Positions 2,472 through 9,369 of a stretch of DNA of 36,608 nt are shown here, piece by piece. The notes beneath the pieces are model-generated. The model searched no databases. It saw nothing but the letters and a program-made list of their open reading frames with translations, and was not told the DNA's origin. Positions within the stretch are counted from its first letter, which is position 1; every line of letters starts with the position of its first letter. Origin of the DNA: an uncultured Saprospiraceae bacterium (GTDB taxonomy: Bacteria > Bacteroidota > Bacteroidia > Chitinophagales > Saprospiraceae); the NCBI GenBank assembly GCA_937922815.1, contig CALAJP010000114.1, positions 1-36,608 of the forward strand. The letters run 5' to 3'. Both the position numbers and the translations under genes were made by a program.

Positions 2472-3668
2472 TTATTTTCTGAGTAGTGGTACAAACCAAC
2501 AATCATCATCAATAATTAAATCTTCTTGAGCTCGGGCACAAACACTCCATGGTTCGTCTCCATAAAACACAGAAGGTTGAATAAAAATATCGTCGATCTG
2601 GTCTAAGTTATGAAATGCTTGATGAACCTTAGGCCCATCTCCATAATCACCATCCGTTTTTTCTATTACATCACCTTCAGCATCTCTTATCTTTATATTC
2701 TCGCCCAATCTTCCAAAATCAGGTTTAGTAACAAAGACTTTACCTTTTAGTTGCTTTTTCTTGGTGTAAGTAGGTAATAAAAACGAAGTTTCTGGATACC
2801 ATTCATATAAAAGTGCCAAAAATGCTTTCGAACCCCAAACCATGGTGTAAGCAGGATTAAGAACAATCAGTTTATCGTTCATAATAAGTTCTGAAAGAAT
2901 ATCTAACAAATCGGGTTCGTCAAAAATGATAAAATCCCAAGGTAACCATTTGGCTAAGAAGTCGAAACGATAAAAAAGCTCTTTTGATTGTTCGTAATAA
3001 ACACCATCTTCTTCTGAAAAAATAATGTTTGGCAAATCAGCATAACGAGTTTTTAGATCTTGTTTTTGTGCTGCCTTTTCGAGAAATTGAGCCGTTAGTT
3101 TATCTTCTTCAAAACCAAGAGAACTGAATAGTATTCGTTGTTCTTTTTCGTCATAAAAAGAAATGATTTCTTTCAGACGAAGCCCTATTTTTTCCATCAA
3201 ATCATCAGCAGTACGCTTTTGATGAGTGTCTTGAATTTCGTTTTGTAACAAAGCCGTTTCAACAATTAAGGTAGGCGTATCCGCATTAAATTCTAATAAT
3301 TTAGGTTGCGAACCATCCAATCCTCCTGCCAAATCGAACCTTCCCATTAAGAAAGGATGCCTTTTTTTGAAAGAATATTCAATGAGAGGAATCATCTTTT
3401 TAGGGATGTTTAATTTATCCCAATGATTTTCCTCAATGACTCTTTTTAACCCTTTTTCAAAAAGGAGATAGGCCTCTTTAGATGTTTTTTTATAGTTCTG
3501 ATAGACATTTTCTTCAATGACCAACGATTTATGATAAACATAGTCTAAGTTCTCGCCTTCATAAAACCAAGCAAAAGGTCTTATATCTAAGTTAGAGTTA
3601 AATGCAACTAATTGCTCAACCCAAGTTTTATTATCCGCCATATGATCTTGAAGAACTTGATTTTCCAT
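2472..3668 (-). CDS. Glutathionylspermidine-synthase-like ATP-grasp ligase (YgiC/YjfC-like)
   Basis: A 398-residue protein of the glutathionylspermidine synthase pre-ATP-grasp family. The family hallmark is clear at residues 108-133: GRFDLAGG followed by PKLLEFNADTPT. A later segment, FVTKPDFGRLGENIKI, fits the ATP-grasp nucleotide-binding region, and the C terminus has IFIQPSVF and PWSVCARAQ. The length is close to E. coli YgiC/YjfC and lacks the amidase half of bifunctional Gsp synthases. Enzymes of this fold form an amide bond between a carboxylate, in Gsp synthase the glycine of glutathione, and an amine using ATP. It has no signal peptide, so it should be cytosolic. Its ATG (3666-3668) lies inside the upstream lipoprotein gene with a 38-nt overlap in another frame; a second ATG at codon 10 (3639-3641) would cut the overlap to 11 nt. 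The two genes are almost certainly co-transcribed. The substrate is unknown. Confidence 0.82.
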   Translation of the reverse strand: MENQVLQDHMADNKTWVEQLVAFNSNLDIRPFAWFYEGENLDYVYHKSLVIEENVYQNYKKTSKEAYLLFEKGLKRVIEENHWDKLNIPKKMIPLIEYSFKKRHPFLMGRFDLAGGLDGSQPKLLEFNADTPTLIVETALLQNEIQDTHQKRTADDLMEKIGLRLKEIISFYDEKEQRILFSSLGFEEDKLTAQFLEKAAQKQDLKTRYADLPNIIFSEEDGVYYEQSKELFYRFDFLAKWLPWDFIIFDEPDLLDILSELIMNDKLIVLNPAYTMVWGSKAFLALLYEWYPETSFLLPTYTKKKQLKGKVFVTKPDFGRLGENIKIRDAEGDVIEKTDGDYGDGPKVHQAFHNLDQIDDIFIQPSVFYGDEPWSVCARAQEDLIIDDDCWFVPLLRK

Positions 3669-4179
3669 ATCCTTTAGAAGAGCTGCTTGGCCTTGTACTT
3701 CTAGTAGTAGCAGCTGATTTTTTCATTGTTTGAGCAGAACTGTTATTTACCTTTTGGTAAGTATTTTGATTCATATATGAACCAGCCATAATAGGAGAAC
3801 TCATGCTTCTACCCATCCAGTAACCCATTAAACCACCATACAAAACACTACTGATTCCAGAAGAACGATAGTATTGAGGGTGACCTTCTTCAACTTTAGT
3901 TACTTTGATGTCTGCTAACATTAAGGTATCTACTGTTTTGTCAAGATTTGTAATAATTGCCATAGAACTATCCGTAGCAGGTATTACTTTTTCGTCAGTA
4001 ATTTTAAATTCGTTAGTAGAAACCTCTTGCATATAAGTAATAACGCCCATTGTCGGGTCTGTTCTTTCAATTTGATAAGTTTTGGAAGAACTGCTGGAGT
4101 CTCCACAGCTCGTAAATAATAACGAACCAGAAAAAGCAGCAACTAATAATGCTTTTTGGATGTTGGTACTAAATTTCAT
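3631..4179 (-). CDS. YgiB-like lipoprotein with Ser/Gly-rich tail
   Basis: A 182-residue predicted lipoprotein. A hydrophobic signal (residues about 9-24) ends in a lipobox-like LFTSC with the lipidated cysteine at C25. A short Gly-rich hydrophobic stretch near residues 110-122 (LYGGLMGYWMGRS) precedes a low-complexity Ser/Thr/Lys/Gly tail ending in SSRSYGG. This layout matches enterobacterial YgiB (DUF1190): lipoprotein signal, GYMMGR-like patch and a tail ending in SSRSMGG. As in E. coli ygiB-ygiC, it sits directly upstream of the ATP-grasp ligase. I compared from memory, so homology rather than analogy is an inference. The start is an ATG at 4177-4179, with a promoter-like pair upstream. 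Function is unknown; the conserved gene pair and tail suggest the ligase acts on or with this protein. Confidence 0.75.
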   Translation of the reverse strand: MKFSTNIQKALLVAAFSGSLLFTSCGDSSSSSKTYQIERTDPTMGVITYMQEVSTNEFKITDEKVIPATDSSMAIITNLDKTVDTLMLADIKVTKVEEGHPQYYRSSGISSVLYGGLMGYWMGRSMSSPIMAGSYMNQNTYQKVNNSSAQTMKKSAATTRSTRPSSSSKGYGKSSSSRSYGG

Positions 4180-4300: not shown

Positions 4301-5389
4301 TTATTCGACTAACAAGTAAGGAACAATTTCAATACGTCTATTATATTGACGTTCGTTCGCAGTGGTGTTATTGTTCACAGGTCTGGTCTCTCCAAATCCT
4401 TTTATAATGAGTCTATTTTTAGAAATTCCTTTTTGTGTAAGATAATTTCGAACACTTTCAGCTCTACGAATAGATAGATTTTGGTTGAATTCAAACCCAC
4501 CTTCATCATCTGTATGCCCATGAATTTCGATTCCTATTTCAGGTTGATTGTTAAGAACATTAATTAGGTTTTCTAACACCTTAATACTTTCGATGGTCAA
4601 ATAAGCACTTGATGAAGAAAAATAAACCCCATTCAAAACAAAAATTTCATTTGGTTGAAGAGGAATATCAATCCTGTGGTCTTTTGAATTGATGAATGGT
4701 GGTTTCTTAATTAGCTCCACATCGTCAATATAATAATATCCATAACCGATACTTTTATCATTTTGAATAGTTTTAGTATCATCATCATTAACAAAATTTC
4801 CTATAATTAAATATTGATAGGTCGAGTCTGCCATAAAAGATGATGAAACTTTTATCCATTGGTAGTCGGATGTTATATCTAGTTTTTCCATCATCGAGAC
4901 CGTAGGAATACTTAAAAGAGAATCATTGTTTAATACAATTTTTTGAGTGCTTAAAGCAGCACCTATATTTTGAATATGGATGGATTTAGGCATATGTTTC
5001 AGATGGAATGTTAATTGATATTCTTGTCCTACAACCATTTTTTCTTTGATTCTTACCGCTGCATATTCTCTGCAATGCGATTTCCCCGTATTACAACCAT
5101 AGGCAGTAATTCCAATCATCGCCTCTCCCGTTTTAGGTGAAGCGTTGCCAAAACCTTTTTCTTTCCATGTTTTAGGAACAATTACTCTTGGGTTATACGT
5201 GTCGGGACTTGCGGTGGTAGGAGAGTACCAATGTCTAACCACTTCTGAAAAATCAGTTCCGTTATAAAACCAACCCAAGGGTGTTTTATCGTTAAGTTCA
5301 AAACTAGGGTTTGGGATTAGGTTAGGTTTGTGAACTTGACCAAAGACAACATTATGTATAAAAAGAAAAACTAATAGTTTATAATTCAT
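4301..5389 (-). CDS. OmpA-family outer-membrane/peptidoglycan-associated protein
   Basis: A 362-residue exported protein. The start chosen is the ATG at 5387-5389, which opens a clean signal peptide (MNYKLLVFLFIHNVVFG, then Q). The longer frame begins at a TTG at 5560, would overlap the next gene and has no signal in place. The mature N terminus (NLIPNPSFE) begins a carbohydrate-binding-like or uncharacterised beta domain seen in Bacteroidota surface proteins. Residues about 250-360 are an OmpA C-terminal domain, with HGHTDDEGG and then NLSIRRAESVRNYL and GFGETRP, the pattern that binds diaminopimelate in peptidoglycan. It probably tethers the envelope or a surface structure to the wall. The next gene upstream, a DUF1963 protein on the same strand, ends 68 bases before this start, so they may share a transcript. 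Confidence 0.85.
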   Translation of the reverse strand: MNYKLLVFLFIHNVVFGQVHKPNLIPNPSFELNDKTPLGWFYNGTDFSEVVRHWYSPTTASPDTYNPRVIVPKTWKEKGFGNASPKTGEAMIGITAYGCNTGKSHCREYAAVRIKEKMVVGQEYQLTFHLKHMPKSIHIQNIGAALSTQKIVLNNDSLLSIPTVSMMEKLDITSDYQWIKVSSSFMADSTYQYLIIGNFVNDDDTKTIQNDKSIGYGYYYIDDVELIKKPPFINSKDHRIDIPLQPNEIFVLNGVYFSSSSAYLTIESIKVLENLINVLNNQPEIGIEIHGHTDDEGGFEFNQNLSIRRAESVRNYLTQKGISKNRLIIKGFGETRPVNNNTTANERQYNRRIEIVPYLLVE

Positions 5390-5457
5390 AACTTCTGAGA
5401 AGATGTTAGTTAAGTAACCCGAATTCTGATAGAAATCGTATCTAAAAATGACATTTT

Positions 5458-6240
5458 CTAATAAGAATCCCAGTAAAATATTGACATTTCGTAGTTTTTT
5501 TCTAACATTTTCTCGATAGATAGTAAAAAATAGGCAGTTCCTAAGTCTCCCCAAACACAATTCATGTTTGAATCGCTATCCAGCTGAAATAAAAGTACAT
5601 CTAAGCTACCTGCATGATGAGGGAAATCGTGAAAAAAATTAGCGTAGCCACCAAGCTTGTGGCCTATACCAACATTAATTTCTAACCAATCGGGCCACCT
5701 TCTTAACCCTTTTACTTGACGAACTATTTCTAAATCATTAATATATTCGGATATTTTAGGATGATTAGGAGGCATCACTTCTTTTTGTATTTCAAAGTTA
5801 AGTGCGAAAACCTCGTTAAAAACTAGAGGTAAGTTTTTAAATTCTCTTACAAATGTTATTTCATTCCAGACTTTAGTGGGGTCAGATTCTACTTCTCGAT
5901 GATATATGATTTTGAAGTCTTTAGTTTCAGGTATTCCGAGAACACCCTTGCCGTACAATAAATCATCATTGATGAAAAATTGTAAAATTCCTTGTTTAGG
6001 AAATATGTGATTGTTGGGTAATTCAGCAAAGTTTATTTGAGAAAGAAAGAACAATTGCTGCTGTTTTTTTCCTAAAGGATAGGGTTTGTTCTTGGGCAAA
6101 TAGGGAACCCCTCCGATTTTGCTTTGGTATATATCAGTTTGGCTAGATTTATAAGGATTTAGTAAAATAGACTCGATAGTAGTCGATAAAATCGATTCTC
6201 TATAAAACTTTAGTATTTCTGATAACGATGAAGATACCAT
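5458..6240 (-). CDS. DUF1963 (YwqG-like) protein
   Basis: A 260-residue cytosolic protein of the DUF1963/YwqG family. Family-typical blocks appear in order: KIGGVPYLP (41-49), FLSQINFAELP (65-75), GILQFFIN (84-91), HKLGGYANF (194-202), LLFQLDSD (216-223) and GDLGTAYF (231-238). These are the conserved Gly-Pro, Gln-Asn and Gln-x-Asp positions that define the family. The biochemical role of YwqG proteins is not established; they often appear as scattered accessory genes and sometimes near toxin-immunity loci, but no toxin-like gene is evident here. The start is an ATG at 6238-6240, and there is no signal peptide or membrane segment. The 202-base stretch between it and the metallopeptidase gene shows no convincing promoter or terminator. 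Confidence 0.85.
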   Translation of the reverse strand: MVSSSLSEILKFYRESILSTTIESILLNPYKSSQTDIYQSKIGGVPYLPKNKPYPLGKKQQQLFFLSQINFAELPNNHIFPKQGILQFFINDDLLYGKGVLGIPETKDFKIIYHREVESDPTKVWNEITFVREFKNLPLVFNEVFALNFEIQKEVMPPNHPKISEYINDLEIVRQVKGLRRWPDWLEINVGIGHKLGGYANFFHDFPHHAGSLDVLLFQLDSDSNMNCVWGDLGTAYFLLSIEKMLEKNYEMSIFYWDSY

Positions 6241-7713: not shown

Positions 7714-8733
7714 TTAATGAAGGATAAACTGAACACGTCTGTTCTTATTTTTACCCTCTACCGTTTCGTTTTCTGTTATTGGTTCGGACTCACCTCGCCC
7801 TTCATAAGAAATTCGTTCCCCATTTATTCCTTTAGATCGTATATATCTAAAGCAAGAACGAGCTCTTTTTTCTGATAAATTCATATTGAAAGTTTCGTCA
7901 CCATCACTATCGGTATGACCAATTATTTTTAATTTATAATCAGGGTACTTTTTAAGCATTGAAACAAGGTTGTCAATAATTGTTTTTGATTCACCTTTTA
8001 TCCTCGCACTATTATGGTAAAATTGAATGTTCTGGAGATTTTCTAACGCCTCTCTTTCATTTTCGTTTACTTCTTTCTCTGGGCAACCACCATTTGCGGG
8101 TATTCCGAACAAGTCGGGACATTTGTCTAATTTATCACTAACACCATCATTGTCACTGTCAGGTTCCAAGTTCGTTTCAGTCTCTTCATTTTCTAAAGCA
8201 ATATCTTCTTCATACCCATTAGTCTCAGTGCTTTCAGTTATTATTTCCTGTTCGATAATTTCTTCTGGGCAACCATTGTTCTGACGAATTCCTGCTTGGT
8301 TGGGACAATCGTCTTCGCTATCAATTACACCATCAGAATCGCTATCTTTTGTAGTAATGGCATCATTAAGACTAATAGGGGCTTTTGAGGGTGTTGATTC
8401 AGTTTCTTTAATTGATGTGAAATGGCTATTAATAGAATCAATAATATCTTTTGATTTTGCTTCTGTTCTACTTTCAGTATCAAATTCAAGGTCTACCGCA
8501 ACAGCCTCTGAACCTATTGTATCTTCCTCGTTAATGCTATCCATTGTTATTAATGAATTATTAGTACCTTCTTTTTGGGACTGAATGGCTGATTGGTGAA
8601 GTTCTTTTTGTGTAAAACTAGAGACATCAGATAAATACCAAAATAGCCCGCCAAATAAAGCGATGACGAATAGGGCTATAAAAAAATCGTTTCTATCTTT
8701 TTTAGAAGAAAAGTTTAAAAGATCTTGTAGCAT
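7714..8733 (-). CDS. Inner-membrane-anchored OmpA-family protein with two TSP3-like calcium repeats
   Basis: A 339-residue protein from the ATG at 8731-8733. The longer frame (377 residues) starts at a TTG at 8847 and would add a 38-residue cytosolic leader. A single transmembrane helix lies near residues 16-34 (FFIALFVIALFGGLFWYL) after a short basic N terminus, so it is probably a signal anchor. A Ser/Glu-rich linker follows. Two thrombospondin-type-3 acidic repeats come next: DSDSDGVIDSEDDCP near 130-144 and DSDNDGVSDKLDKCP near 192-206. They are expected to bind calcium and carry paired cysteines. Residues about 232-339 are an OmpA peptidoglycan-binding domain (IIGHTDSDGDETF, NLSEKRARSCFRYI, GRGESEP). 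It may link the inner membrane to peptidoglycan. A strong terminator follows. Confidence 0.85.
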   Translation of the reverse strand: MLQDLLNFSSKKDRNDFFIALFVIALFGGLFWYLSDVSSFTQKELHQSAIQSQKEGTNNSLITMDSINEEDTIGSEAVAVDLEFDTESRTEAKSKDIIDSINSHFTSIKETESTPSKAPISLNDAITTKDSDSDGVIDSEDDCPNQAGIRQNNGCPEEIIEQEIITESTETNGYEEDIALENEETETNLEPDSDNDGVSDKLDKCPDLFGIPANGGCPEKEVNENEREALENLQNIQFYHNSARIKGESKTIIDNLVSMLKKYPDYKLKIIGHTDSDGDETFNMNLSEKRARSCFRYIRSKGINGERISYEGRGESEPITENETVEGKNKNRRVQFILH

Positions 8734-8879
8734 GTTGTATTGTTCGTTTTGTAATTGTTTTTGATTGAGACGCACCAATTCTGTAAAAGTATTGGAAGTT
8801 GAATAAAAAATATTTACATTATCGTTAATATGACTTTTGAACGACAACGTTTATGTGAAAAAGCTGATTCCTAATCTTT

Positions 8880-8916: not shown

Positions 8917-9369
8917 TTATTTTAGTCGAATGCCGCAATTCCACCAATCTTTATCAATAAAAGCATTATTTTTTTCATAGAAACGAACAGCATTTTCATT
9001 CCAATCTAAGACTTGCCATTTTACCATACTCGCATCTCTTTGTTTGGCTATGTTAATTAAATAATCAAAAAGAAGTTGCCCTACGCCTAGTCGCCTATAT
9101 TTTTCTTTTACAAAAAAATCATCTAAATAAACCATTCGTCCTTTCCATGTAGAGAAAGCATTGAAAAAAAGCATCATTCCACAAATATCGTTTGAGTTAC
9201 TATCGTAGGCTATAATTACTTCAAAAGCATTTTTGGCAAAATCATCTTTATAGCTTTCGATAGAAGTGATAACTTGTTTTTCGTCATTTTCGAATACAGC
9301 TAGTGCGTAAACCATATTCCAAATTTCTTCTATATCGTCAATAGTGGCGTTTCTAATTTCAATATTCAT
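8917..9369 (-). CDS. GNAT acetyltransferase resembling spermidine/spermine N-acetyltransferase
   Basis: A 150-residue single-domain GNAT enzyme. Motif A is EKYRRLGVGQLLFDYL, with the acetyl-CoA pyrophosphate loop RRLGVG at 92-97. Motif B is LDWNENAVRFYEKNNA, with the general-acid tyrosine at Y131. The stretch GRMVYLDDFFV plus WNENAVRFYE closely follows the diamine acetyltransferase (SSAT) pattern of a LYLEDFFV-type strand and a WNxxxxxFY segment. This suggests a polyamine or another small primary amine as substrate, with acetyl-CoA as donor. Substrate assignment within GNATs is unreliable from motifs alone. The start is an ATG at 9367-9369. The gene is divergent from rpsL, with a 288-base spacer that holds the str promoter; no clear promoter for the acetyltransferase was found. 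Confidence 0.85.
   Translation of the reverse strand: MNIEIRNATIDDIEEIWNMVYALAVFENDEKQVITSIESYKDDFAKNAFEVIIAYDSNSNDICGMMLFFNAFSTWKGRMVYLDDFFVKEKYRRLGVGQLLFDYLINIAKQRDASMVKWQVLDWNENAVRFYEKNNAFIDKDWWNCGIRLK

Follow-up and report, generated by a model that had tools for sequence, protein, structure and literature searches.

The window, that is, the whole stretch of 36,608 nucleotides analysed here, from an uncultured Saprospiraceae bacterium, carries on its reverse strand a lipoprotein gene and, overlapping its 3' end, the gene of an ATP-grasp ligase (Table 1). The lipoprotein has an N-terminal signal and a lipobox-like LLFTSC that places the lipidation cysteine at residue 25. Its C-terminal sequence is SSSSKGYGKSSSSRSYGG; the tail holds KGYG, with one G fewer than GG[FY]G, followed by ten residues ending in SYGG. 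The open reading frame thus confirms a preliminary description of this DNA, which had noted a lipoprotein ending in SSRSYGG. An AlphaFold2 model of the protein, built on 24 sequences, has a core with mean pLDDT of 93–98 (residues 41–160 except 91–110), and the values drop to 65, 51, and 43 in successive blocks from residue 161, being low from about residue 165. The core fold has no match in the PDB at an E-value of 0.001 or better, so no function can be derived from it.

Table 1. Positions of the lipoprotein–ligase pair and its tail features in the window, and of a small protein found at related loci.
Feature	Location	Strand	Length or basis
Lipoprotein, remote DUF1190 (YgiB/YjfM) relative, predicted substrate	3631..4179	-	182 aa
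YgiC-like ATP-grasp ligase	2472..3641	-	389 aa from the probable ATG 3641; 398 aa from ATG 3668 (ORF 2472-3668)
Lipobox-like LFTSC with lipidation Cys25	4105..4119	-	Sequence; Cys in this column in relatives
C-terminal tail, residues 165-182, low-confidence, presumably flexible	3634..3687	-	AlphaFold2 pLDDT
KGYG, the variant of [R/K]G(G)[FY]G present here	3664..3675	-	Column conservation; similar motifs in DUF1190 proteins and viral partners
SSRSYGG end, predicted ligation site (C-terminal glycine carboxylate)	3634..3654	-	GG conservation in partners
Small protein with a YEIYITVK-like end	L002:766-1113; L003:2964-3311; L222:5896-6252; L251:3320-3649		

The ligase matches PF03738 (GSP_synth) with an E-value of 9.5e-72 (242.7 bits for a cut-off of 29.3), which bears out its earlier description as an ATP-grasp enzyme resembling glutathionylspermidine synthase. 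In a phmmer search, the nearest solved structures are those of Escherichia coli YgiC (7uk8, E 2.5e-25) and YjfC (7uk6, E 7.1e-23), and both proteins carry the RefSeq record name peptide--spermidine ligase. The score with the model of the bifunctional glutathionylspermidine synthetase/amidase (NF007801) is 98.9 bits for a cut-off of 882, and the best stretch lies in the C-terminal part. The 38-base overlap of the two genes given in the preliminary description (3631–3668) is correct for the longest open reading frames, but not for the start that is conserved in relatives, ATG 3641, which is probably the true start of the ligase and leaves an overlap of 11 bases. This ATG falls within the Tyr codon of the lipoprotein's YGG end (TCA T-ATG-GCG-GAT-AA), and in three relatives (L013, L101, and L102) the equivalent position holds the sole start codon of the stretch scanned around the lipoprotein stop. 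Since the window carries both ATGs, the ligase may instead start at 3668. In E. coli, YgiB does end in SSRSMGG, and its gene lies ahead of ygiC, as the preliminary description states; the two genes are 5 bases apart and do not overlap.

Ribosomal protein S12 of the window has its closest counterparts in a plasmid collection in Phocaeicola and Bacteroides (81.3% identity), but with Neisseria at 80.5% this is weak evidence for a Bacteroidota genome. No neighbours of the yjfIJKL type were seen in the scanned part of the window. Two proteins with a C-terminal OmpA-like domain are encoded near the pair, one at 4301–5560 (identified with Pfam) and one at 7714–8847 (identified by eye from the sequence). 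An acetyltransferase lies about 5 kb away (a GNAT at 8917–9369), to which a weak link had been proposed because it seemed SSAT-like. The distance and the weakness of the link were rightly stated, but the best match in the PDB is thialysine N-epsilon-acetyltransferase, diamine acetyltransferase 1 ranking behind, and we dropped the link.

Of 296 genomes sampled from the phylum, 26 have PF03738; within the family, the domain is matched in 86 of 298 (84 above the cut-off). We gathered 98 ligase loci, two of them from E. coli and one from the window; distant matches (L015–L029) were left out, and one weak locus from a scan of genome contigs does not enter the counts. The partners were searched for with a profile of the lipoprotein body, built without the last 14 residues. 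This identified a lipoprotein partner in 81 of the 98 loci, each time upstream of the ligase and on the same strand. Among 24 aligned partners, 20, including that of the window, have a cysteine in the lipidation column by a count made by eye; the other four have none there and retain a hydrophobic N-terminal stretch. The 17 loci without a partner found by the body profile include those of E. coli (L030 and L031). At L001–L006 and L033–L035, a smaller protein with a tail containing GFG, GLG, or GLLG is encoded upstream, and it is visibly a lipoprotein in L001–L005, L033, and L034; a gene of this smaller type also lies in the extended stretch of L045, where the ligase is a fragment. The partner lies 1.3 kb upstream of the ligase in L044, far from it on its own chromosome in L008, and on a different contig, as two tandem copies, in L036. 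The ligase of L107 is broken and has no partner; that of L032 is intact, but its genome (G436) yielded no partner. The tandem duplicate partners off the ligase contig in genome G349 (L181:1131–2891) end in SYGG and HSG. Genome G343 has a broken ligase gene (L119:8051–8983) and likewise yielded no partner, as fits a loss of both genes together.

Across the family, 78 of the 298 genomes have a partner, and a comparison of the lists places all 78 within the 86 with a ligase match, a figure that is inflated because linked genes are gained and lost together. No lipoprotein without a ligase match was found among these 298 genomes. The eight genomes with a ligase only comprise G339, G360, G391, and G511, which have the smaller protein; G393 and G546, which have a weak match below the cut-off; G343, with its broken ligase; and G436, which we could not explain.

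The preliminary description had proposed aligning the C termini beside this ligase family across phyla and asking if they are conserved beyond composition. They are: 76 of the 81 partners found by their bodies end in GG and five in GS, where 2000 rounds of shuffling of the last 30 residues gave a mean of 2.4 GG ends and a maximum of 9. When the set is reduced to 24 representatives at 60% identity, 21 end in GG (shuffle mean 0.85, maximum 5). Nine of the last twelve positions (-1 to -5, -7, -8, -11, and -12) are more conserved than in the largest of 500 shuffles, and positions -6, -9, and -10 lie within the range of the shuffles. Chance or composition is thereby ruled out as the source of the GG tail. 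The consensus in partners of the window type is G[FY]G followed by K-S-[ST]-R-S-[FY]-G-G, and the element common to the partners comprises G(G)[FY]G, a spacer of mostly some ten residues, and, as a rule, a small residue at the C terminus. Freely varying C termini, named in the preliminary description as grounds to abandon the idea, were thus not found, but a terminal GG is not obligatory, and 31 of the 58 unique viral tails from the best 80 of 100 loci (see below) end otherwise, for the most part in a small residue. Some proteins end in SS, GS, or HA, and a few in GE; a second group of relatives ends in SS, VS, GS, AS, or HA. The spacing is looser in some bacterial members, such as YgiB (23 residues after GGFG). 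A DNA pattern for [R/S]-S-[F/Y]-G-G-stop has six matches in the genome. The lipoprotein is the sole one that belongs to an in-frame gene of appreciable length; the remaining five, whose in-frame stretches measure 3–35 aa, were rejected as further substrates with the same end, for the one pattern searched.

The ligase start lies inside the codons of the tail in many loci, so a cause at the level of the DNA had to be tested. Under such a constraint, the GG end would be conserved because its codons hold the overlapping start of the ligase, whose ATG indeed sits inside the TAT-GGN codons in the window and in many relatives. Where an overlap is possible (66 loci), every lipoprotein ends in GG, the five GS ends are confined to the non-overlapping loci, and codon -1 is GGA in 62 of the 81 partners. 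However, 10 of the 15 non-overlapping loci also end in GG, which indicates that the overlap is not the origin of the conservation, though it may reinforce it, and neither ygiB nor yjfM overlaps its own ligase gene in E. coli. The GG end also persists where the gene lies downstream of the ligase, as in two annotated Rhodobacterales records, in which the DUF1190 protein still ends in FGG, and in a third, unannotated record, in which a downstream gene identified as an open reading frame ends in GG. It is kept in one of three unlinked copies (SYGG, HSG, and the FSG of G249) and in phages without an adjacent annotated ligase. As the sole cause of the GG end, the overlap is thus largely refuted, although it may strengthen conservation in the overlapping loci; we regard a constraint on the DNA as a very unlikely explanation.

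The match of the window lipoprotein to PF06693 (DUF1190) is below the cut-off (14.9 bits for 22), and this domain is matched at an E-value of 0.1 or better by 2 of the 24 aligned partners (best 9.4e-4). Its LLFTSC, KGYG, and SYGG correspond to the three features for which we compared it with DUF1190 proteins: a lipoprotein signal, a GG[FY]G-type tail, and a GG end. We fetched 24 named plasmid, chromosome-like, and phage loci and could read the partner's tail in 20; in L136, L143, L144, and L146, a complete partner was not identified. Seventeen of the 20 readable tails end in GG and the others in HA, GS, and CG. As the tail itself helped to identify some of these partners, a fairer basis is the ten whose DUF1190 identity is independent of it (eight by annotation, L145 and L147 by Pfam), nine of which end in GG. 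In a profile–profile comparison of the 24 partners of the window type with 18 DUF1190-like proteins, the alignment is confined to the last 17 columns (probability 96.8, E 2.4e-10). Restriction to the 12 tail-independent rows (the ten plus YgiB and YjfM) gives the same 17 columns (probability 96.3, E 1.9e-9, score 63.9). The best score among 60 shuffles of the tail columns in this restricted comparison is 51.3, and the tail was the top-scoring region in a single shuffle (50.9). When all 18 rows are used, the real score is 68.7 and no shuffle exceeds 58.8; the five highest-scoring shuffles match a segment of the body, the GYMMGR region. The bodies alone align over 31 columns (probability 83.9, E 7.7e-6). 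Given these matches of tail and body, the lipoproteins seem to be distantly related, with the tail as their strongest common element. In a quick tree of 84 ligase sequences, the window and YgiC fall into different clades, both of which contain GG ends. The end is known for 81 of the rows, some having been assigned by hand, and the tree requires seven or more switches between kinds of end among them.

The same genes are found in viruses. Of 50,697 phage records, 136 match YgiC-like ligases and 133 match YgiB-like proteins, a few of the records in each case being Salmonella chromosome contigs. In IMG/VR, we examined the best 80 of 100 ligase loci, on which all the viral tail counts rest. In these loci, 23 of 76 open reading frames with a lipobox end in GG, against 5 of 898 others. 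At 69 of the 80 loci, a same-strand frame has a GGFG-type motif among its 40 C-terminal residues, and frames with the motif, whose expression was written after inspection of the viral tails, amount to 71 of 1362 on the plus strand and 1 of 1009 on the minus strand. Among the 58 unique tails of these best 80 of 100 loci, the distance from the motif to the C terminus is 8–13 residues in 55, and 27 end in GG (shuffle mean 9.7, maximum 20). The final residue is G in 27 of them, S in 18, A in 7, E in 4 (as GE), F in 1, and T in 1. A small last residue is a weaker signal (52 of the 58, for 41 expected and a maximum of 52). In Achromobacter phage Motura (L148:303–3128), a recorded homospermidine synthase, with saccharopine-dehydrogenase domains, a lipoprotein ending in SAGG, and the ligase are consecutive. 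In a 2023 virus paper, the synthase–ligase cluster is read as a potential for making glutathionylhomospermidine. The position of the lipoprotein between the synthase and the ligase suggests a different acid substrate, and the cluster suggests that homospermidine is the amine in this system. Three phages of enterobacteria whose annotation shows no ligase within 1.5 kb have lipoproteins ending in SGG, SFGG, and SFGG; large enterobacterial phages with such unaccompanied YgiB-like lipoproteins may rely on the YgiC of the host. YgiB-like lipoproteins of large enterobacterial phages were recorded at L197:1501–2118, L198:1501–2124, and L199:1501–2070, the first being PHROG 3739, of unknown function.

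Six residues of GspS (R316, D318, E330, N332, K498, and K533) are invariant in the 96 aligned sequences, which include the window protein, YgiC, YjfC, and GspS, whereas R538 is present in 94 and R598 in 95. The window protein has all eight, which we take to be the catalytic residues of the ATP-grasp fold. The position of GspS S335 holds Thr in 90 of the 96 sequences and that of S337 holds Thr in 62 and Ser in 34; these serines are presumably glutathione contacts, and the window ligase has Thr at both positions, as do YgiC and YjfC. The substitutions speak against the ligase making a small-molecule conjugate, such as a glutathionyl-polyamine, with the lipoprotein merely co-transcribed as a sensor or binding protein, although the Ser of the second position is kept in the 34 sequences just mentioned. 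Such a product would fit the parent enzyme, glutathionylspermidine synthetase, the annotation that depositors give to relatives, and the published reading of the Motura gene pair. It would leave unexplained why the tail is the element common with DUF1190 proteins, and why partners unlinked to the ligase, in the few cases seen, nevertheless co-occur with it. In a 2025 paper, which cites Sui 2012, YgiC is stated to have no Gsp activity. We consider a small-molecule product unlikely.

As for the amine, the genome encodes nspC (carboxynorspermidine decarboxylase; 496 bits for a cut-off of 409) and two matches to PF01564, while an AdoMet decarboxylase had no match in it. Given these polyamine genes, a spermidine-type polyamine is likely to be available.

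The gene layout, the conservation of the tail, the co-occurrence, and the conserved catalytic residues are the observed basis for the reading that we find probable: the lipoprotein and the ligase would be a substrate–enzyme pair of the YgiB–YgiC kind, in which the ligase joins a polyamine to the C-terminal carboxylate of the lipoprotein before export. That the tail is the substrate, that a polyamine is the amine, and that joining precedes export is what we infer from this comparison. The comparison supports, short of proof, the earlier suggestion that the ligase modifies the C terminus of the lipoprotein, for example with a polyamine, through the tail, the names of YgiC and YjfC, the synthetase residues, and nspC. 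The lipoprotein would be synthesised in the cytosol, where the ligase would recognise its flexible tail (KGYG and the ten residues ending in SYGG). The ligase would use ATP to activate the C-terminal carboxylate as an acyl phosphate, and the activated carboxylate would be joined to a primary amine of spermidine or of a close relative. The capped precursor would afterwards be exported and lipidated, and the lipoprotein in the envelope would then bear a positively charged tail free of carboxylate. Because a modification of the C terminus must await the end of translation, the scheme needs post-translational export. As to the purpose of the cap, which is likewise a matter of inference, our guesses are added positive charge or protection from C-terminal proteases. 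We count against capping that GG is not universal, the GE ends, the HSG and FSG ends of unlinked copies, the lack of a partner in G436, the looser spacing in some bacterial members, and the failure to find an AdoMet decarboxylase.

The tail could be conserved for a different reason, such as binding in the periplasm. It might be a recognition or assembly motif for another partner in the envelope, or a C-terminal degron, and the ligase would then act on a different protein or peptide. A short conserved motif within a tail modelled at low confidence would suit such a role, and C termini with small residues resemble ends recognised by proteases. It is harder to reconcile with the family genomes, none of the 298 having the lipoprotein without a ligase match, and with the narrow spacing to the free C terminus in viruses (58 unique tails, best 80 of 100 loci). 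Moreover, the one tail pattern searched is in frame solely in the lipoprotein gene, so another substrate would need another signal. We judge this explanation quite improbable and retain capping of the lipoprotein as the preferred reading.

The pair shares with YgiB–YgiC and YjfM–YjfC of E. coli the order of lipoprotein then ligase, the homology and catalytic residues of the ligase, the GG(F/Y)G motif, and the GG end. It differs in a lipoprotein body that is barely recognisable as DUF1190, in the separate clade of its ligase (from YgiC), in the overlap of the genes, and, from YjfM–YjfC, in the yjfIJKL neighbours, which were not seen in the scanned part of the window. With GspS and trypanothione synthetase it shares the PF03738 ATP-grasp domain and the catalytic residues, but the ligase has no amidase domain, has Thr in place of the serines presumed to contact glutathione, and has a protein tail as its predicted acid. 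Spermidine on the C-terminal carboxylate of a protein ending in GG, as predicted here, has a precedent in SUMO and ubiquitin (PMC12270671); those conjugates involve eukaryotic E1/E2 enzymes and beta-grasp proteins. GlyGly-CTERM/rhombosortase tails (PMC6219818) are also Gly/Ser-rich C-terminal signals, but in them a hydrophobic region and basic residues follow the glycines, whereas those of the window protein are at the very end.

Since YgiC and YjfC are already named peptide–spermidine ligases, the window pair is a distant relative of a known kind, and it is the prediction of the substrate that becomes much sharper. In the literature searched, we did not find the YgiB/YjfM tail named as a ligase substrate, nor a natural substrate of YgiC or YjfC; for E. 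coli, the idea may already have been put forward or tested in Pederick 2023 (Biochemistry 62:899). What is new is how sharply the tag is defined, how narrow its spacing is, and that it has spread in phages. By sequence likeness, the same kind of pair is carried by bacteria of several phyla and by many phages. We see about as much to support as to doubt the broader view of a widespread bacterial C-terminal protein polyamination, in which a single tag (GG[FY]G, some ten further residues, and a small end) is shared by otherwise dissimilar exported lipoproteins and a dedicated ligase caps them with a polyamine before export. Phages would use it too, some with both substrate and ligase (one with a homospermidine synthase) and others with the substrate only, presumably relying on the host enzyme. 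A conserved tag on dissimilar lipoproteins offers a concrete predicted substrate that can be quickly tested. If the capping reading is true, C-terminal polyamination would join the bacterial protein modifications, proteins of the DUF1190 type would be offered a function that can be tried, and phage genes annotated as glutathionylspermidine synthase would be read anew.

A Haemophilus protein whose gene is flanked by a hypothetical gene and by one for a putative glutathionylspermidine synthase is reported to be associated with the outer membrane and not surface exposed, and its knockout to have no phenotype; judging by the operon, it is likely a YgiB homologue. Finally, in one group of relatives and on viral contigs, a further small protein, often with a lipobox and with an end resembling YEIYITVK, lies beside the smaller GGFG lipoprotein (Table 1) and is a possible third component.
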